Of a stretch of DNA of 42,900 nt, positions 24,049 through 42,794 are shown piece by piece. Made by a program: the position numbers and the translations under genes. Source of the DNA: Chloroflexota bacterium (GTDB lineage: Bacteria; Chloroflexota; UBA11872); the NCBI GenBank assembly GCA_028873795.1, contig JAPPNP010000088.1:1-42900 (forward strand), written 5' to 3'. The notes below the pieces were generated by a model. It did no database searches and had not been told where the DNA came from. It saw only the letters and a list, made by a program, of their open reading frames with translations. The first letter of the stretch is position 1; the number at the start of each line of letters is the position of its first letter.

Positions 24049-25245
24049 CTACGCAACCTGCACGTCGATCACGATGCGCCGGATCGACTGTGTGGGCAAC
24101 TCGTTCGTGCCCAGCTCGCGCGTGAAGTCCGAGTGCGAGTAGGCCACGTGCAGCTTGTTGCCGCGCTGAATCACCGACGTGTACGAGCAACCCGGACCGG
24201 TGTGAAAGGCGAACGGGTACTCCCAATGCTCGCCGGTGCCGTCCAGGCTCAGCATTACGTGCGTGATCTGAGGATGCCCATAGGCCCCGCGCCCGGCCAC
24301 GCAGGCCAGCACGCCGTTGGGCAGCTTTTGCAGGCGCGGCTTCACGCCCTGCCAGCCGACAGACTCGGGGGCGGACCACGTTTCGCCACCGTCCGTCGAG
24401 CGTGACTGGAACATGGGCGAGTAGCCGCCGGTGCGCATCATGCAGAGGATGTCGCCGTTGTCGAGCTGGATGACATCGGGCTCGTCGAATCCTTCGTCCA
24501 CCGCCCGATCCGCCGGGCCGTAGACCGGCTTGTGATCGTCGGGATGGAAGTGCTCGACGAACTTCCAGGTGCGTCCCCGGTCCGACGAGCGGACGACGGA
24601 GCTCGAGAAGCTGTACTGCATCATGGGCCGCCCGCTGGGGCTCAACCCGTCGAGCACTTCGGGCGGGCCGACCTGCTGCTCAAACACCGTCATGTAGTCC
24701 CCGTTGTCCAGCTCGATCAGGCGGGAGTAGTTCTCGAAAGACGCCTCGTCCCAGGGAAACCCCTCGACATTGAATGGGAGAAGCTCCAGCAGCTCGCCCG
24801 CTTTCGTCCACCGGCGCAGCTGAAACGTCGAGTCCGCGCGCTGCTGGACCAGGTGATAGGGGCCCTCGGCGCTCAGATAGGGCTCTTGGTAGTTCTCGAG
24901 CGGATAGGTGTCGATCCGGGTGATCGTGCCGTCGCTGGGATAGCCGATGATCCCCGAGCCGAAATCCATGGTGTTGAGGCCGGTTGTGGGATGCCGGTCG
25001 ATAAACGGCGAGTCGTCCGGCGCCGGCTGCCAGGTCGCGCCCAGGTCGCTCGAGACCACTCCGGCCAGAGGCTCATCGCCCCCGTGCCGCCCGCGGTGAT
25101 AGGACATGAAGAGGTTGTCGCCCTCGAGCTCCACCAGGCCCGGAAAGTTGACGACGCTGTCGGTGACCTCCAGCCACACGTCCGGTTCCGACGCGCTGAT
25201 CACCACCTCGCGCGATCCGTTGCTGTACCTCGCCTGCTTGATCAT
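24049..25245 (-). CDS. Sialidase-superfamily BNR-repeat protein
   Basis: A 398-residue six-bladed beta-propeller-like protein of the sialidase/neuraminidase superfamily. Three Asp-box motifs (SxDxGxTW) are visible: SSDLGATW (65-72), SSDRGRTW (about 218) and STDGGETW (about 285). No signal peptide is visible, so it may be cytoplasmic or exported by another route. The substrate could be a sialic acid or another acidic glycan; the sialidase catalytic Arg triad cannot be confirmed by eye. The start is ATG with GGGGTG upstream. It is separate from eno, and its upstream gap holds a direct repeat. Confidence 0.85.
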   Translation of the reverse strand: MIKQARYSNGSREVVISASEPDVWLEVTDSVVNFPGLVELEGDNLFMSYHRGRHGGDEPLAGVVSSDLGATWQPAPDDSPFIDRHPTTGLNTMDFGSGIIGYPSDGTITRIDTYPLENYQEPYLSAEGPYHLVQQRADSTFQLRRWTKAGELLELLPFNVEGFPWDEASFENYSRLIELDNGDYMTVFEQQVGPPEVLDGLSPSGRPMMQYSFSSSVVRSSDRGRTWKFVEHFHPDDHKPVYGPADRAVDEGFDEPDVIQLDNGDILCMMRTGGYSPMFQSRSTDGGETWSAPESVGWQGVKPRLQKLPNGVLACVAGRGAYGHPQITHVMLSLDGTGEHWEYPFAFHTGPGCSYTSVIQRGNKLHVAYSHSDFTRELGTNELPTQSIRRIVIDVQVA

Positions 25246-25282
25246 CGCTGCACCCCGCCACCCCTCAGGCCGCGAAACACGC

Positions 25283-25356
25283 GGCTACCTGCATCGTAGG
25301 AGGCGAAGGCACCGGGCGCACGGAGAATCGGGCGGTGCTCGTGGGCCAATCCAGTC
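25283..25356 (+). repeat. Left direct repeat flanking the MNT-HepT pair
   Basis: About 74 bases, beginning GGCTACCTGCATCGTAGGAG and ending GGGCCAATCCAGTC. A second copy in the same orientation begins at 26195, on the other side of the toxin-antitoxin pair. I estimate roughly 75-80% identity with one or two short gaps. No terminal inverted repeats or transposase accompany it. Confidence 0.75.
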
Positions 25357-28818: not shown

Positions 28819-28993
28819 GGAATCACCTCCCGCGAAAGCGTCGGCCCATGGTCGCAAACTCGGCGCGAGCGCGCGCGGCCATGCCCGGTCGAGCCGACGC
28901 GAAAGCCCCGCCGTGGCCTAGACTTCGAATTGCGGTGCCGGAGCAAGGCGATGACCCTTGAGACTGAATCGCAGAGCCTCACGTCGAATCGAC

Positions 28994-30610
28994 ATGGACG
29001 GCGCCCGCCGGCTAGGCCTCGCGTTGGCAGCCCTGGTCGTCGGCGGCGCGGTCGTCCTTGCGGTCGCCGCCTGTGATCCGGTCGAGCCCGCCGCCGACGC
29101 CACGCCCACGCTCGCGCCCGATCCATCGGCCGAGCAGCGCGATCCGATGGTTGCGGTGGAGCGCGGACGTCTCGAGAACCGCCTGCGAATTCCGGGGCTG
29201 GTCGAGGCGCGGGGACAAGAGATCCTGACCTTCGAGGTGCCCGGCGTCGTGGGCGCCATTCGCGGCCAGCGTGGGGTGATGGTGCAAGCCGGCAGCGTCC
29301 TGGTGTCGCTCGACGCGGAGTCGCTGAATGCCGAGATTGGCGCCGCGCGCGAGGCTCGCGTGGCGGTCCTCGAAGAGCTTGAAGACGTCGAGACCCAGCT
29401 TGCCGCCGAACGGATTGCCGCCGAGCGCGCCGTGCTGGCAGCCGCGGCGGAGCTGGCCGAGCGCCAACGTGTGTGGGAATCGCTCACCGCGGCGCCGCCT
29501 GCCGCGGAGGTGAACGCTCGCCAAGCCCGTGTGGCTCTGCTTGCGGCGGTGGTGGACGACCGCCACGCCGCATTGACGACCGCCGAGAACTCCATCGAGG
29601 CGCTGCTGGCGATCGCGCGCGCCGAGCTTGCGTTGCGCGAAGCCGGCCTGGCCGAAGCTCAGGCCGAGCGCGACGGTTTGCCCGAAGATGCGACGGCGCG
29701 CGAGCGCGCCAGAGCCGACGCAAACCTTGCCGCCGCCAAGCTCGCGGTGGCCCAGGCGCGCACCCTCGAGCAGCAGACCGCAGGCCCCAGCGGACCGCCC
29801 CACCTGCGCGGGGCGCGGCGCGATCTCGCCGCCGCCGAGGCGGACTTGCTGGCGGCCCAGGCCGAGCTCGAGCGACTTCTGGCAGGCGCTTCAGGCGTCG
29901 ACGTGGCCGCGGCCGATGCGGCCCTCGCCTCGGCGCAATTCGAATACGACCTGGCCGCCGCGGCGCTGGCCGCCCTCGATTCCGGCACCTCACCGCTGGC
30001 CGCGGATGCCGAGCGACTACGCGCGGAGGCGGAGCGCCTGGAGGAGCGAGTCGCCATGCTCGAGAGCCGCTCGACGCAGCTCGACATTGCGGCGCCGTAT
30101 GACGCCATCATTTCGCGCGTGCTGACCGTGCGCGGGCGCGACATTGCGCCCGGCGACCCGGCCATCGAGCTGGCGCGGGCCACCGACCTGGTCTTCGAGG
30201 CCGTGTCCACCCCGGCGCAGGCGGCCAACCTGCGCATCGACCAGAGGGTCCAGGTCACGCTGCGCGAGTTTGCCGAGACGCCCTTCGAGGGAACCGTGGT
30301 CACGCTGCCGCTCGACACGGGCGACCCTTCGGACAAGCCCTTCATCCAGCTTGCGGTCGACTGGGGCGACCAGCCGGTAACCATCGGCCTGCAGGGCGTC
30401 ATCAGCGTCCTGCTCGGGGCGTCGGACGGGGTGCTCAAGGTGCCGGCGTCCGCCGTGTGGACGGTCAACGGCCGCTCGTTCGTCGAGACGCTGATCGACG
30501 GCCGCCGCCGGACGCTTCCCGTGACCCTGGGCATGGAGACTGACGACGAGGTCGAGATCGTCCACGGCCTGACCGAGGGCGACATGATCTTCGCCACCGT
30601 TCGCTCGTGA
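28994..30610 (+). CDS. MacA/HlyD-like adaptor lipoprotein
   Basis: A periplasmic-adaptor-like subunit of an ABC exporter, 538 residues. A signal peptide with a VAAC lipobox puts the lipidated Cys at about residue 27, so it is probably anchored to the outer face of the membrane. A lipoyl half-motif (LTFEVPGVVGAIRGQRGVMVQAGSVLVSLD) precedes a very long Ala/Glu-rich coiled coil (about residues 105-370), then the second half (LDIAAPYDAIISRVLTVRGRDIAPGD) and beta-barrel domains. I prefer the ATG at 28994 to an upstream TTG because it begins the signal peptide. The stop overlaps the permease GTG. Confidence 0.88.
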   Translation: MDGARRLGLALAALVVGGAVVLAVAACDPVEPAADATPTLAPDPSAEQRDPMVAVERGRLENRLRIPGLVEARGQEILTFEVPGVVGAIRGQRGVMVQAGSVLVSLDAESLNAEIGAAREARVAVLEELEDVETQLAAERIAAERAVLAAAAELAERQRVWESLTAAPPAAEVNARQARVALLAAVVDDRHAALTTAENSIEALLAIARAELALREAGLAEAQAERDGLPEDATARERARADANLAAAKLAVAQARTLEQQTAGPSGPPHLRGARRDLAAAEADLLAAQAELERLLAGASGVDVAAADAALASAQFEYDLAAAALAALDSGTSPLAADAERLRAEAERLEERVAMLESRSTQLDIAAPYDAIISRVLTVRGRDIAPGDPAIELARATDLVFEAVSTPAQAANLRIDQRVQVTLREFAETPFEGTVVTLPLDTGDPSDKPFIQLAVDWGDQPVTIGLQGVISVLLGASDGVLKVPASAVWTVNGRSFVETLIDGRRRTLPVTLGMETDDEVEIVHGLTEGDMIFATVRS

Positions 30611-33503
30611 TCCTCGCGGGCGTCGGCGCGGCCGGGCGCACGGTGCTCGCGTTGCTGGGGTTCGCCGCCCGGCGGCTCCGCAGCAATCCCATTCACGCGT
30701 TGACCACGCTGCTGGGACTCTCGCTCACGGTGGGCGTGATCACCGCCGTGCCGCTCTATGCGGAGGGCATGAGCACTCGCCTGCTGCGGGAGCACCTGCG
30801 CGCCTCGCCCGGACCGCTCGATTTGGGGGTGGTGATCGAGCACGGTGAAGCGCAGCTGCCGGACGATCCCCCCACGTCGCCTGCCGCGTATCGGCGAGCC
30901 GACCGGATCTTTGGCGAGGCCGTCGCCACCCATCTCGGCGTGCCTGCGGAAGCCATCGTGCGGTTGGTGCGATCCGACAATCGGCATCTGCTCTTCACGT
31001 CCGACGACCCGGACGCGCCCCTGCGCGAGGGCGTTCCGTGGGGCGGGCTGGCCGCGATCACCGGGCTGGACGAGAACGTCGAGATGCTGGAAGGGCGGGC
31101 AGCCGCCGATGAGGTCTACGCGCTGCGAATGCCGTCCGGCGCGCTGGCGCCGCTGGTGGAGGCGGTTGCGGCGACGGACATGCTCGACGCCGCCGGCCTG
31201 GTGGTCGGGGACCAGGTGCAACTGCGCTTCGGCGACCCGCGGGCGCTTGACACGCCGCAGGCGGTCGTCGCCGTGGACATCGTGGGTCGCTTCGCTCCTA
31301 TCGAGACACGTCGGGCGTACTGGCCCGAGGATGTCGACGAGCTGACGAAAAACACGCTGTTCACGCCGCCGGCCGCGTTTGTCGACAGCCTGCTGGCGCG
31401 CTATCCCGACGTTTGGCATCCGCGCCTCCTGGATCGCGCGGTGTGGTTCGCGCCGCTGGACGATGCCGCGCTGCAGGCGTCGTCCGCCGGGCGGACGAAC
31501 GAGGGCATCTTCGCCGTGCGCATCATTGCGGAGCGGGTGCTGCCGTTCATGAGCGTCAGGACTCGCCTGGAGCGCGATCTGGAACAGTTCGAGAGCCGTC
31601 TGGCGGTGCTCACCGTGGCCCTGTTGGCGCTCAGCGTGCCGATCGTGGTGATGGTGCTGGGCTTCATGCGGCTCTCGGTGTCGCTGGCCATCGAACGTCA
31701 GCGGCAAGAGGTGGCGTTGCTGCGCAGCCGCGGGGTGGGCGTGGCGCAGCTGGTCGGCGTATACCTCGTCGAAGGGCTGCTGATCGGGGCGCCGGCGCTG
31801 GCGGTCGGATTGGCGCTGGGCTTGGGCTTCGCGCAGGCCATCGGACAGACGGCGAGCTTTCTAGCCTTCGACGCGCGTGCGCCGCTGGACATTGCGCTGA
31901 CGGGCGGCCAGGTGGCCGTGGGCGCGGCGGCCATCGCGGTCAGTCTGCTGGCGATGCTGGGTCCGGTCGTTGGCGCCGCCAGGCTGAGCATTGTGGGCGC
32001 CAAGCAGCAGGCCTCGCGCAGCCTGGATCGCCCGCTCTACCAGCGGCGGCTGCTGGATGTGCTGCTGCTGGCGGCGGCGGTTGCCGGTTTTTTCCTGCTG
32101 CAGAGCGTCGACGCGCTGCCCGGCGAGACCGAGGACGACCTGCTGCTGGCCGACACGCTGCTGGTGCTGGCGCCGATTCTGTTCATCTTCGCCGTCTCGG
32201 TCTTCGCCCTCCGCGCCTTTCCCTATGCGGTGCGAATGCTCGCCGCGCTCACCGCGCGGGTGTCCGGCGTGAGCGCGTTCGTGGCGCTGCGGCAGATCGG
32301 CCGCAGCCCGGCGCACTACACCAGCCTGGTGTTGCTGCTCTCGCTCACGTTCGCCCTCGGGGCCTTCAGCGCGTCCTTTGCGTCGACGATCGATCGCAAC
32401 ATCATCGACCGCGTGTATTTCGCCACCGGCGCCGACGCTCAGATCTTCGAGAGTGGGCACTTCGACGCCGACGCCCGGTCTTGGTACATCGCGCCGGTGG
32501 ACCGCCACTTGGACGTGGTGGACGACGATGGCCGGCAGGTGGTCACGGAAGCGGCGCGCCACTGGGTCAAGACCGCGCTCCTGCACATCGACACGCCGTC
32601 GGTGAATGCCCTGCGCGAGGTTCGCCTGCACGCGGTCGATCCCATCCCCTTCGCCCGCACCATTGCCTGGCGCGATGACTACGCGACCACATCGCTGAAC
32701 GCCCTGGCCAATGCGCTGGCGGCGGATGACCGCGGCGTGATCCTCGAGCGCGAGCCCTTTCACGAAGCCATGGGCGTGCAGATTGGCGACCACGTGACGA
32801 TGGAGATCAATCGAGTGGTCGTGCCGTTCGTGGTGGTGGGCTGGATGGACGCCCTGCCGTCGCAGGAGGTTGGCGCGGGATCGTTCGCGGTCGCCAATCT
32901 CACGTATATCAACCGCGTCATCGGCCGCTCGCCGTGGAACACTCTGGTGCGGCTGCTGCCGGACGCACCGGCCCGGGAGCTGATCCAGCCGCTGAAGGAC
33001 CTCGACATCCAGGCGCTGCGCACCGTCGACGCCAGGTCCGAGATCGTAGACGCGCGCCGCGACGCCGTGCTGGTCGGCACGTTCGGTTTGCTGACGCTAG
33101 CGTTCATCGTGGCCGCCGGTCTGACCCTCAGCGGATTCGGCATGCACGCGGTCTTGTCGTTTCGTCGACGCGTCCAGGAGTTTGGGATCCTGCGGGCCAT
33201 GGGGATCTCGACGCGGCAGATGGGCGCCATCGTGGCGTTGGAGCAGGGGTTCCTGGTGCTGCTCGGCACGGCGGTCGGGACAGTCATCGGCATGGTGACG
33301 GCAGCGCTGTTCGTGCCATTCCTCGAGTTGAGCGCCGGCGAACGCGACGCGTTTCCGCCCTTCATCGTCGACACGGCCTGGGACGACATTGGCAAGATCT
33401 ACGTCGTGTTCGGCGTGCTGATCGCGGCGGCGTTGCCCCTCTCAATCCGCCTGCTGCGGCGCGTCCGGACGCACGAAGCCATCAAATTCGGCGAGGAGAC
33501 GGG

Positions 33504-33507
<4 letters not shown>
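30607..33507 (+). CDS. ABC permease with two FtsX domains
   Basis: A 966-residue membrane protein of the MacB/FtsX-type ABC exporter family. One span at the N-terminus (LTTLLGLSLTVGVITAVPLY) is followed by a large outside domain, FtsX domain 1 (about 325-470, with coupling motif QEVALLRSRG), two more spans, a second outside domain, and FtsX domain 2 (about 820-960, with QEFGILRAMG). The duplicated layout is like LolC/E halves fused. The start is GTG in a GTGA overlap with the adaptor; the stop overlaps the first ATPase ATG. Substrate unknown; lipid or peptide export is the usual job. Confidence 0.9.
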
Positions 33508-34409
<902 letters not shown>

Positions 34410-34413
34410 CCCC

Positions 34414-34503
34414 GGTAGCCCACGCTGCCCCTCCAGTGGCCCACGCTGCGCGTCCGGTGGCCCACGCTGCGCGTCCGGTGGCCCACGCTGCGTGCAGCGT
34501 GGG
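34414..34503. repeat. 21-bp tandem array ending in a hairpin
   Basis: Three 21-bp units begin at 34414, 34435 and 34456, each like GGTGGCCCACGCTGCGCGTCC. A fourth, at 34477, runs into the perfect hairpin CCCACGCTGC-GT-GCAGCGTGGG (34482-34503). It is the longest member of the GTGGCCCA family. It occupies the 130 bases between the two ATPase genes. The array is too short and its units touch, so it is not a CRISPR. Confidence 0.88.
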
Positions 34504-34539
34504 ATTCCCAATGCTCTCCAAAGTGATCGTCGAGCCATC

Positions 34540-35319
34540 ATGACCGCGTCTCCGTCGTCGGCAGTCGTGCGCCTGCTCGACGTATCGCGCCGCTACGGGG
34601 AGGGCTCCGCCGCGGTGACGGCCGTCGCCGGAGCGACCTGGGATATCGGGCGCGGCGGGCTCTACGCGCTGCGCGGACGGTCCGGCTCGGGCAAGACGAC
34701 CCTGCTCAACCTGATCGGCGGGCTGGACGTGCCGACCGAGGGGTGCGTGGTCTTCGACGGCGACGACCTCGGAGCGCTGAGCGAGGACGAGCTGGCCGCC
34801 GTGCGCCGGCGCAGCCTCGGCTTCGTGTTTCAGACTTTCGCGCTGCTTCCGGTGCTTTCGGCGCGGGAGAACGTGGAGCTGGCCCTGCGCGTGGCCGGCG
34901 CTCCGTCGGCAACCTGGCGAGAGCGCACGCTCGACGTGCTGCGGCTGGTGGGCCTGGAGTCGCGTGTCGATCACCGCCCGTTTGAGTTGAGCGGGGGCGA
35001 ACAGCAGCGCGTGGCCATCGCCCGCGCCATCGCCAATCGACCCGACGTGCTGCTGGCCGACGAGCCCACCGGCGAGCTGGACAGCAACACGGGCCTGGAG
35101 ATCATGCTGCTGTTTCGCCACATCGTGGCTGAAGAAGGCGTGACCGCCGTGGTGGCCACGCACGACCCCGCCCTGAGCCAGATCGCCGATCAAACGGTGG
35201 TCATGCGCGACGGGCATCTTGCCGAAGCCGAGGGGCCGCTGGACTTCGACCTGCCAGACCTGATCCAGCACGTGGAGATCGTGGATCCGGCGACGGTGCG
35301 TCCGGCGTCCGATCACTAG
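34540..35319 (+). CDS. Second ABC ATPase of the exporter
   Basis: A LolD/MacB-type ATPase of 259 residues. Walker A GRSGSGKTT (46-54), Q-loop in GFVFQTFALLPVLSARENVELAL, signature [17 protein letters not shown], Walker B LLADEPT and ATHD are intact. It is clearly different from the first ATPase and lacks the AbrB-like tail. The start is ATG; upstream in-frame codons are repeat sequence. It is likely to pair with the first ATPase on the two FtsX halves, or to replace it under other conditions. The tandem array upstream may affect its expression. Confidence 0.9.
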   Translation: MTASPSSAVVRLLDVSRRYGEGSAAVTAVAGATWDIGRGGLYALRGRSGSGKTTLLNLIGGLDVPTEGCVVFDGDDLGALSEDELAAVRRRSLGFVFQTFALLPVLSARENVELALRVAGAPSATWRERTLDVLRLVGLESRVDHRPFELSGGEQQRVAIARAIANRPDVLLADEPTGELDSNTGLEIMLLFRHIVAEEGVTAVVATHDPALSQIADQTVVMRDGHLAEAEGPLDFDLPDLIQHVEIVDPATVRPASDH

Positions 35320-35455
35320 ATCGCCGTCGCAGTCGAGCAGTACAAGAGGCGGCAGGGGAGTTGAGATACAGTGCACAAACCGGCGCACTACGGAGGTGTC
35401 GGAGCTAAAGGTCTCCAGTCATTGGATGCACGACTAAGCGAGGATTCAACAGGTA

Positions 35456-35803
35456 ATGTTCGATAGCACAGGAACTGAGTTTACAGCCGTCGGCATACTG
35501 TTGGCAGCTGTCGTCATTATATGTGGTTCTTTTCTTTATCTTTCCCCGTCCATAGTCGCTCACCTCAAAGAGCATGAGCGGACGGCGTTTATTTTCTTTG
35601 TAAATCTTGTTGCTGGATGGACTGTTATTGGCTGGATTGTCCTTTGGATATGGATGCTTCGGACGGTGCCGAAGACAACCGAATCCGGGAGACGAAGTCT
35701 CCAGCCAGCGGTGCGGACGCTGCCCGGCTCGCCGCCTCCGACCGAGCGGAATTCCGCCCGCGGCGAGAGCCGTGAGGGAGCCGACTCCAAGCGAAGCACC
35801 TGA
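35456..35803 (+). CDS. Superinfection immunity-like membrane protein
   Basis: A 115-residue protein. The first 70 residues hold two spans, about 12-31 (VGILLAAVVIICGSFLYLSP) and 45-67, around SIVAHLKEHERTAFIFFVNLVAGWTVIGW, which matches the superinfection immunity family (T4 Imm-like: an N-rich ...NLxxGWTxIGW motif). The coding sequence to about 35665 is AT-rich, unlike all neighbours, and then switches to high GC; the remaining 45 residues are Arg/Ser/Pro-rich and probably not part of the domain. This suggests recent transfer. Function in phage or plasmid exclusion is by family only. Confidence 0.75.
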   Translation: MFDSTGTEFTAVGILLAAVVIICGSFLYLSPSIVAHLKEHERTAFIFFVNLVAGWTVIGWIVLWIWMLRTVPKTTESGRRSLQPAVRTLPGSPPPTERNSARGESREGADSKRST

Positions 35804-35861
35804 TGCCGTCCGACCCCGACCGGATGGCCGGCGCTGGTGCGCGCGTGGGAGGAGAACGATC

Positions 35862-37505
35862 ATGCAACCAGACCTGATCGCACTGCCGCCGGACGTCGAG
35901 CGGCCCATGGTGGTTCGTCGCCGCGACGGTCGGCTTGACGGCTTCTTTCTCAAAGACGCGGACATTCCGACTCCGCGCGTCGCGCGCATTGCCTCGCGGG
36001 ACGACGGGCACTCCTGGGACGAAGCGCCCGACGTGCTGACGCTGCCCGACACGGGCGGGCTGTGGGGCGGACTGGAAGTGCTGGCGGACGCCGACGACGA
36101 GGTGCATTGCTTCTTCATGCACGACCGGGGCTCCGGCGTCTTCGGCGCGCCGCTGGCGGGCGAGGGCGTGGCCCACGAGGGCCCCTACCACGGCAAGTTC
36201 CTCGACATCTGGCATCTCGGGTCACGCGATGGCGGCACGGCCTGGACCGAGCCCAAGCGGATTTGGGAGGGCTTCACCGGCGCGTTGAACAGCGTGATCC
36301 AGCTCCGCAATGGCCGCATCGTGCTGCCCTTCGCCTCGGCGACGGGTCAGACGTGGGCCCACCGTGTCGATACGGGACTCGACGCCTTCAGCTTCGCCGG
36401 CGCCTTCTACTCGACGATGGTCTACTCCGACGACGCGGGCGCAACCTGGCGCCAGGGCACGCGCGACATCAAGGCGTGGGCGCCGATTCCGGCCTACGGC
36501 GCCGACGAGCCGGTGATCATCCAGAAGCTCGACGGGCGCGTCTGGATGCTGCTGCGCACGCAGACCGGGCGGCTCTACGAGTCGTTCTCCGACGACGGCG
36601 CCGAGTGGGCGGTCGCGCGACCGACGCCGCTTGTCTCGTCCGACTCGCCGGTGGGCCTGGTGCGCCTCAGCGACGACCGCCTGGTGCTGATCTGGAACTG
36701 CTGCCAGCGGTTCCCCTACGCCTACGGCGGCCGCCACGTGCTGCACGCGGCCATCTCGGAGGACGACGGCCTGACCTGGCGCGGCCGGCGCGAGGTGCTG
36801 CGCGATCCGCGACGCCACGATCCGCCGCCCACCAAGGGTGACTTCGGCACGGCCTATCCCTTCCCCGTTGTCACGAGCGACGACGCGGTGATCATCGTGT
36901 CCGGGCAGGGCGAGGGTCGCGTGCTGATGGTGCGGCTGGACCCGGCTTGGCTCTACGAGACCCAGCAGGCGAGCGACTTCGCCGACGGACACGAGGACTG
37001 GTCGATCTTCGGCACGGCCGGCGTCCAACGGCAGCCGCATCCGGACCGCGCCGTCGCCTTCGCGCTGCGCCTCACCAAGCAGGCGCCCGGCCGCACGGCG
37101 GGGGCGGTGTGGAACTTCCCCGCCGGACGACGCGGGCGGGTGCAAGTGCGGCTGCGCCTCGAACCGGGCGCCGGTCCGTTTCGGCTGAGCCTGACGGACC
37201 ACTTCTCGACGCCCTTCGATCCCCAGGACCAGTTCCACAACACCTTCAACGTTCCGGTCGCGGCGGACGGCGAGATCGGCGGCGAGCCGGCGCTCGAGGC
37301 CGGGCGCTGGCAAACAGTCGAGCTCGCCTGGGACACGCACGAGGACCGCGCTTGCCGCGTTTCGGTCGACGGGCGGCAAGTGACCACGGTTCCTCAATTG
37401 CACGAGACGCTCGGAGTCAACTACCTGCGCGTCGCCGTCCTGTCAGAGCCCCACGACCACGCCGGTCTGTGGATCGAGTCGGCGACGGCCGACGTGGAGC
37501 CCTGA
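35862..37505 (+). CDS. Sialidase-superfamily BNR-repeat protein with C-terminal domain
   Basis: A 547-residue protein. The first ~370 residues form a sialidase-type propeller with Asp-box motifs SRDDGHSW (45-52), SDDAGATW, SDDGAEW (degenerate) and SEDDGLTW. The last ~150 residues are a separate beta-rich domain (VWNFPAGRRGRVQVRLRLEPG, FRLSLTDHF, AGRWQTVELAWD, RVSVDGRQV), of the laminin-G/concanavalin type often used to bind glycans. No signal peptide is visible. ATG is preceded by GGGAGGAG, a strong ribosome-binding site. It follows the immunity-like gene without sharing its base composition. Confidence 0.85.
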   Translation: MQPDLIALPPDVERPMVVRRRDGRLDGFFLKDADIPTPRVARIASRDDGHSWDEAPDVLTLPDTGGLWGGLEVLADADDEVHCFFMHDRGSGVFGAPLAGEGVAHEGPYHGKFLDIWHLGSRDGGTAWTEPKRIWEGFTGALNSVIQLRNGRIVLPFASATGQTWAHRVDTGLDAFSFAGAFYSTMVYSDDAGATWRQGTRDIKAWAPIPAYGADEPVIIQKLDGRVWMLLRTQTGRLYESFSDDGAEWAVARPTPLVSSDSPVGLVRLSDDRLVLIWNCCQRFPYAYGGRHVLHAAISEDDGLTWRGRREVLRDPRRHDPPPTKGDFGTAYPFPVVTSDDAVIIVSGQGEGRVLMVRLDPAWLYETQQASDFADGHEDWSIFGTAGVQRQPHPDRAVAFALRLTKQAPGRTAGAVWNFPAGRRGRVQVRLRLEPGAGPFRLSLTDHFSTPFDPQDQFHNTFNVPVAADGEIGGEPALEAGRWQTVELAWDTHEDRACRVSVDGRQVTTVPQLHETLGVNYLRVAVLSEPHDHAGLWIESATADVEP

Positions 37506-41147: not shown

Positions 41148-42794
41148 CTAGGCCAATAGGTCCCGCAGTCGCTGCTCGAGATCGGCCTTGGCTTCCGGCT
41201 GCGGCTCCATGAGGCGCGCGTCCCGCAGGCTGCCGGCGACCGGCTGATTGTCCGTGACCAGGTGCGGATCGCCGCCTTCCTCGTTGATCAGCTCGATCAG
41301 GAGGCGCTCCACCAGCTCCGCTCGCACTCCTGAATGGGCCGGGTCGCCCCAGAGATTGTGCAGGTCCTCCGGGTCGTCCTTGACGTTGTAAAGCTCGCCG
41401 TATTCGGTGGTGCCGTAGTGCAAGAGCTTCCAGTCCTCGGTGACGAGCATCTTGACCCGCTGCGTGATGGGCGCCGGATGCGCCTTGCCGGCGCCGACGA
41501 GCTCCGGCCGACCGCTGCCGAAGATGGCGATGCGCTCGACGATGACCGCGTCGCGATGCGTCTCGGTCTCGCCGCGAAGCAGCGGGGCGAAACTGCGACC
41601 CTCCTGCCCGACCAGCGGATCCGCGCCCGCGAGGTCGAGCCAGGTCGGCACGAGGTCGAGCTGCGTCATCACACCGGCGTGCACGCGGCCCGCCTCGACC
41701 GTCCGCGGGTGACGCCACAGCAGCGGCACGCGGTTGACGCACTCGTACGACATCATCGGCTTGGCGGCGATGCCGTGATCGTTGAGACCCTCGCCGTGGT
41801 CCGAGCTGAAGATTACGTGGGTGTTCTCGGCGAGCCCCAGCCGGTCCAGCTCGGCCAGCACGCGGGCGATGCCGTCGTCGATGAAAGTGGTCATGCCGTA
41901 GTAGTGCGCCACGATCTCGCCGTGGTGGTCGCCGTCCCAGCCGCTGGACGTGTCGTAGCCCTGGTAGGGCAGGCCGTCGCGGGCGTACTGGTATTGCGGC
42001 GGTTTGTTGCTCACGTCCTCGCGCGGCACCGGCGGCGGCATGTCCGCGGGGTCGTACATGTCGCAGTACGGACGTGGCGGCGTGAAGGGCTGGTGCGGGT
42101 CGTAGAACGACATCCAAAGGAAGAAGGGCCGCTCGCGACCATGATCCCGCAGCCAGTCGGCGGTGCGGTCGGCGGTGCGGTGGGTGTAGTGCCACTCGGC
42201 GGGAACGGCGTTCTTCCAACTGTGGAAGGCGCCGGTGCGCGGCTCCAGCGCATTGACCGGCTTCCACAGCTCCAGGCCCTCGGGATGATGCCGCTCCAGC
42301 CAGAGGCGCCAGTGGCCCTTGGGATAGGTGTGCGCGCCCAGGAATTCGACATAGTCGAAGCCGAAATACGGTCCGTACCAGAGGCCGTCGTCAGGGTTGA
42401 CCGGCGCGCCGGGCGGGGGTTGATCCGGCAGCACGTCCTCGTATTCGCCGCTCTTGAAGTGGGCCTTTCCGACCAGCGCCGTGACATAGCCGGCCTGGCG
42501 GAGTGAATCGCCGACCACCGGAATGGCCTCGCTGAGATTGACGTTGTTGAAGACGTGATGCCCGCGCTGGCTGCGCCCGGTGATCATGCTGGCGCGGGCC
42601 GGGGCGCAGATGGCGTTGGTGGGATAGGCGCGGTCGAAGCGCATGCCGTCGCGCGCCAGGCTGTCCATCGCGGGCGTGCGGATGCGCGGGTTGTGAATGC
42701 CCAGCGCGTCCCACCGCTGCTGGTCGGTGGTGATGAAGAGGAAGTTTGGCTGGGAGGTGCTGGGCATTTGGGTCAGGGTTGGTCGATTAGACAC
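41148..42794 (-). CDS. Type I sulfatase (arylsulfatase/GAG sulfatase-like)
   Basis: A formylglycine-dependent sulfatase of 548 residues. The nucleophile signature CAPARASMITG has Cys at about 63, which would be oxidised to formylglycine by a maturase encoded elsewhere. Metal-site segments TTDQQRWD, FSSDHGEGLNDHG and the C-terminal EDWKLLHY are present, as is LYNVKDDPEDLHNLW. No signal peptide is visible. The start is either GTG (42794) or ATG (42767, MPSTSQPNFLFITTD); both lack a clear ribosome-binding site. Sulfated glycan is the likely substrate; specificity unknown. Confidence 0.93.
   Translation of the reverse strand: MSNRPTLTQMPSTSQPNFLFITTDQQRWDALGIHNPRIRTPAMDSLARDGMRFDRAYPTNAICAPARASMITGRSQRGHHVFNNVNLSEAIPVVGDSLRQAGYVTALVGKAHFKSGEYEDVLPDQPPPGAPVNPDDGLWYGPYFGFDYVEFLGAHTYPKGHWRLWLERHHPEGLELWKPVNALEPRTGAFHSWKNAVPAEWHYTHRTADRTADWLRDHGRERPFFLWMSFYDPHQPFTPPRPYCDMYDPADMPPPVPREDVSNKPPQYQYARDGLPYQGYDTSSGWDGDHHGEIVAHYYGMTTFIDDGIARVLAELDRLGLAENTHVIFSSDHGEGLNDHGIAAKPMMSYECVNRVPLLWRHPRTVEAGRVHAGVMTQLDLVPTWLDLAGADPLVGQEGRSFAPLLRGETETHRDAVIVERIAIFGSGRPELVGAGKAHPAPITQRVKMLVTEDWKLLHYGTTEYGELYNVKDDPEDLHNLWGDPAHSGVRAELVERLLIELINEEGGDPHLVTDNQPVAGSLRDARLMEPQPEAKADLEQRLRDLLA

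Follow-up and report, generated by a model that had tools for sequence, protein, structure and literature searches.

The gene at 35456-35803 of the 42,900-nucleotide stretch of Chloroflexota DNA analysed here (the window) is real and AT-rich; it is a chromosomal representative of the known family Imm_superinfect (PF14373) and has an unusual local history. We give roughly even chances to the reading that it encodes an Imm-like membrane protein kept in the chromosomes of its genus, that its AT-rich block has been swapped between species, and that the protein would hinder the entry of phage DNA. The host genome comprises 3.18 Mb in 89 contigs and is 96.6% complete, the window being contig 21; the three named relatives nearest to it are Chloroflexi MAGs, and from names one might guess at a sponge habitat. 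The features on which the analysis draws are as follows.

28955-30607, + strand: HlyD-like membrane fusion protein
30607-33507, + strand: FtsX-like permease
33522-34409, + strand: ABC transporter ATPase 1
34540-35319, + strand: ABC transporter ATPase 2, the neighbour on the left, with 89-92% identity in each of the five congeners
35316-35665, no strand: AT-rich block of ~350 bp (spacer and codons 1-70), giving a tree at odds with the flanks and probably swapped from one species to another
35320-35455, + strand: spacer following the gene for ABC ATPase 2; it can be aligned across five species, whereas G001 has a different one, and a simple scan detected no sigma-70-like promoter in it
35456-35803, + strand: Imm_superinfect (PF14373) membrane protein gene, 115 aa, ATG start, TGA stop (ORF, Pfam match, orthologues in four of five congeners)
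35534-35653, + strand: PF14373 core, residues 27-66, with the motif NLVAGWTVIGW (profile match)
35666-35800, + strand: GC-rich basic tail of 45 residues, no predicted structure, conserved in five orthologues
35862-37505, + strand: BNR_2 (sialidase-like) protein, the neighbour on the right; each of the five congeners has an orthologue with 90-93% identity

The 200 bp at 35445-35644, which encode most of residues 1-70 of the protein, have a GC content of 0.445, the minimum among all 200-bp windows of the stretch (mean 0.687, SD 0.041), with the next distinct minimum at 0.54; this composition check bears out the low-GC island of about 200 bases described in the initial annotation. Near codon 70 the GC content rises in a sharp step and the frame runs on, as had been described, into GC-rich DNA that adds a tail of 45 residues (codons 71-115). 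As a control for hydrophobic coding, overlapping 45-codon stretches with a Kyte-Doolittle value above 1.4 were taken from large ORFs of the window that had been picked mechanically. The 38 control stretches averaged a GC of 0.683 (minimum 0.622) and a GC3 of 0.862, against 0.44-0.45 and 0.40-0.47, respectively, in three hydrophobic stretches of the Imm-like gene, which rules out hydrophobic coding as the source of the low GC. Over all 2,424 45-codon stretches the minimum was 0.504 for GC and 0.311 for GC3, so that the GC3 of the Imm-like gene is not by itself unique. A chance ORF is ruled out by the Pfam and PHROG matches given below and by a core dN/dS below 1, and an RNA element by an Rfam search of 35200-36000, which gave nothing up to E 1.

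The Pfam model PF14373 matches residues 27-66 with 50.5 bits, above its curated cut-off of 27.9, and PHROG 1039 ('immunity to superinfection') matches the protein with E 1.3e-15; on these profile matches we assign it to the Imm_superinfect family. NCBIfam gave a single match, far below its cut-off, PADLOC-DB contained no family matching up to E 1, and no solved structure matched the protein by sequence. The two membrane spans and the NLxxGWTxIGW motif noted initially both held. The motif reads NLVAGWTVIGW, its GWTxIGW part being invariant across five orthologues, and the spans are indicated by the sequence and by a weak structure model (mean pLDDT 65.8, pTM 0.29) that places helices at residues 5-37 and 44-69, the second broken at 56. 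We conclude that this is probably a two-span inner-membrane protein. The tail shows no indel among the five orthologues, in which 21 of its 45 positions are invariant, and is weakly constrained (dN/dS 0.30-1.12); its net charge is +2 to +5. According to the positive-inside rule basic segments are expected in the cytoplasm, and the tail is therefore probably located there.

The gene is present in five of the six sampled genomes of the genus (G000 and G002-G005) and absent from G001. The orthologues in G002-G005 are all 115 residues long, are 74-78% identical to the window's protein and have the same ABC ATPase and BNR genes on either side, and core dN/dS over ten pairs (0.17-0.53) indicates purifying selection. 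Core GC is 0.45-0.48 vs. 0.70-0.71 for the flanks in G000, G002, G004 and G005, and the G003 orthologue is similar (core GC of 0.53, 0.40 and 0.47 at the codon positions). Relatives carrying this gene at this locus are thus likewise low in GC rather than of normal composition. Of the initial proposal, a foreign-looking gene of Imm type is supported, but its recent splicing to local sequence is not; in addition, there is evidence that the AT-rich block moves between species. The whole ORF, tail included, occupies the same chromosomal place in four of the five congeners, and a comparison of the tail DNA with its own genome (96.6% complete) gave no second match exceeding 28 bases, which argues against a recent splice to local DNA. 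We therefore consider the ORF to have been inherited whole, as an ordinary member of its family. The search for a parent gene suggested by the initial annotation yielded only matches below 60% identity (1,563 records from phages and 28 from plasmids, E ≤ 1), and a close phage or plasmid parent was rejected, the best segments in 68 matched viral contigs reaching at most 50% identity. A recent chimera, in which a foreign AT-rich fragment was joined to local GC-rich DNA, would account for the sharp GC step near codon 70, and the tail by itself yields a tree that resolves nothing, so that its history may differ from that of the AT-rich block. However, with the same tail in five of six genus members and, by eye, a similar one in a diverged second copy in G003, such a chimera is refuted as a recent event and we regard it as very improbable; the AT-rich part and the tail may instead have been fused before the genus diverged.

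It is the history of the AT-rich block that departs from that of its surroundings. The block supports the tree (G000,G004),(G002,G003),G005, on which basis the flank topology falls short by 49.7 lnL units and is rejected by the AU test with p = 2e-4 when five trees are compared and 3e-9 when all 15 are. Among 30 overlapping 350-bp control windows drawn from four flanking genes, 19 preferred the flank tree and none the block tree; the flank tree was rejected at p < 0.05 by one of the 30, the largest penalty being 15.0, and seven, mostly in BNR, did not reject the block tree. For the ORF as a whole, rejection of the flank tree is weaker (AU p 0.01). Synonymous divergence departs from that of the four flanking genes in both directions, with a G000-G004 core dS of 0.20 vs. 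0.33-0.47 and a G004-G005 core dS of 0.46 vs. 0.12-0.31. Keeping in mind that the discordant tree is based on ~350 bp from five genomes, these sequence comparisons suggest that the block was probably exchanged between species, which may have proceeded through homologous recombination in the conserved flanks.

The same discordance could have arisen with no exchange at all, from an old tandem duplication followed by the loss of different copies in different species, and G003 does still carry a tandem second copy, 42-46% identical, the two being separated by a decayed 3' fragment of the ABC gene (L033:7870-9127). Loss of paralogues would not, however, bring the G000-G004 core dS below that of the flanking genes, a comparison resting on 70 codons, and we consider this explanation unlikely. 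A mobile island inserted by an integrase or transposase found no support: the window contains no tRNA, no repeat pair bounds the island within 34300-36100, and no phage gene, integrase or recombinase was found among the ORFs scanned, which make up part of those in the window and include three with no Pfam match. The neighbours that do match Pfam are transporter, BNR, MFS, desaturase and sulfatase genes.

In G001 the same flanks enclose a different AT-rich ORF of 74 residues (L050:7829-8053). It has two apparent membrane spans. A search of 40 other genomes of the class at E 0.01 gave no relative, and neither hhalign (probability 5%) nor BLASTP (47 columns with 23% identity, E 0.003 in a single comparison) linked it convincingly to the family; it is treated here as unrelated, although a distant kinship is conceivable.

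The Imm protein of the T4-like phage VR25 scores 65.8 bits against PF14373 as well, and its alignment with the window's protein shows 41% identity over 59 columns; T4-type Imm (VR25; PF14373; PHROG 1039) thus shares the model across the two-span core. In contrast to T4-type Imm, the window's gene is chromosomal, no phage gene was found among the neighbours scanned, and its product has the 45-residue basic tail. T4 Imm has been described to prevent DNA injection through a change of the translocation site (PMC11436027). In soil Acidobacteria, chromosomal Imm_superinfect genes that are not necessarily in intact prophages have been read as retained immunity, and in this sense the idea of host-borne immunity is not new; those genes are host-chromosomal like ours but belong to another phylum, and an analysis of synteny and exchange, as given here, is absent from the available part of that account (PMC5900883). 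Literature searches found nothing under PF14373 and nothing on a superinfection immunity protein with SHOCT, and in those on Mrr and defence the phrase 'superinfection immunity protein' occurred in none among the matches listed.

PF14373 is found across many phyla, and the tails of some members are of the zinc-ribbon, SHOCT or DUF2510 type; in a 43-member alignment six matched SHOCT and five a zinc ribbon (E up to 0.1). The patterns of the family scan included GWTVIGW, so that the invariance of the motif in alignment A2 holds by construction. In genus g2, of the same family, seven proteins of 312-321 aa (L020, L021, L022, L023, L025, L030 and L088), which are all the proteins scanned and come from 7 of the 13 g2 genomes, combine a PF14373 core with an Mrr_cat nuclease domain. 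By eye, their middle stretch resembles a coiled coil. Five g2 genomes have a short form, an open frame of 87 residues. The fusions have the same membrane core as the window's protein and are likewise AT-rich amid GC-rich surroundings, but the core is followed by a predicted nuclease domain, and their surroundings differ as far as the BNR gene shows (weak, partial BNR matches in 11 of 13 g2 genomes, none in two). A nuclease on this core fits a role at incoming DNA. Taken together, the homology with VR25 Imm, the mechanism of T4 Imm, the Mrr_cat fusions and the basic tail suggest a block of DNA entry of the Imm kind, in which the protein, like T4 Imm, would form a membrane hairpin, with the basic tail in the cytoplasm, and would hinder the passage of phage DNA.

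A function apart from phages can also be envisaged. Because PF14373 occurs in many phyla with varied tails, its core may serve as a membrane module of general use, unconnected with phages, and the gene follows the second ABC ATPase on the same strand at a distance of 136 bp, with the same neighbours in five species, as would befit an accessory small membrane protein of the adjoining FtsX-ABC exporter. Yet G001 lacks the gene while its FtsX and ABC genes are still ~90% identical, and the host genome's other PF14373 gene is located on a different contig, close to a gene for a PemK/MazF-type toxin, which makes an exporter accessory improbable in our view.

The low GC, for its part, need not be a mark of foreign origin, if selection or a local mutation bias keeps it low. 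In our class-wide comparison (29 of 30 loci, L010 left out), PF14373 cores lay on average 0.21 below their flanks in the genus itself (six loci, two of them not orthologous to the window's gene) and 0.17 below in g2 (13 loci), and the differences were 0.09 in g8 (seven loci), 0.16 in g11 (two) and 0.03 in g3 (one). The AT-richness is shared by the g2 genes and also by the ORF in the G001 slot. Moreover, singletons in the core are equal in both directions, 17 AT-to-GC and 17 GC-to-AT, with no excess towards GC and hence, small numbers notwithstanding, no sign of drift to the host composition, and those in flanking genes run towards AT (42 vs. 173 in FtsX, 26 vs. 121 in BNR). On the other hand, in other hosts with a flank GC of at least 0.60 the mean difference is just 0.04 below the flanks (34 loci), and 3 of the 34 stand out. 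That comparison used 72 of 80 kept loci, three congeners being left out and five further loci, mostly short or near a contig end, dropped under no strict rule. We regard such maintenance of low GC as possible but rather doubtful.

Returning to a genus-kept Imm-like protein with an exchanged block, the data suggest an Imm-type gene that is settled in uncultured Chloroflexota chromosomes and yet still moves from one species to another in the form of a very short block, as would be expected under phage-driven selection; both the exchange and the replacement at the slot may reflect selection by changing phages. We also entertain, tentatively, a wider reading, in which the slot flanked by the ABC ATPase and BNR genes would be a hotspot for immunity cassettes, its ~350-bp AT-rich blocks encoding small membrane proteins (of Imm type in five genomes, apparently unrelated in the sixth) and being swapped by homologous recombination, and in which the g2 Mrr fusion would be a membrane-tethered nuclease that cuts entering DNA. 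Together with the window's gene, the fusions offer a testable idea for the role of host-borne Imm proteins. Should the function prove unrelated to phages, the case would caution against using the family's name, 'superinfection immunity', for genes of host genomes.

Some minor observations concern the wider surroundings. The second PF14373 gene of the genome (L001:1360-2402) lies close to the toxin gene mentioned above, and on its other side is an ORF that is similar by eye. Within the window, a second BNR-type gene lies at 24055-25284 and a sulfatase gene at 41154-42794, and a GC-rich tandem repeat with a 21-bp unit, ending in an inverted piece, precedes the second ABC ATPase at 34406-34492.
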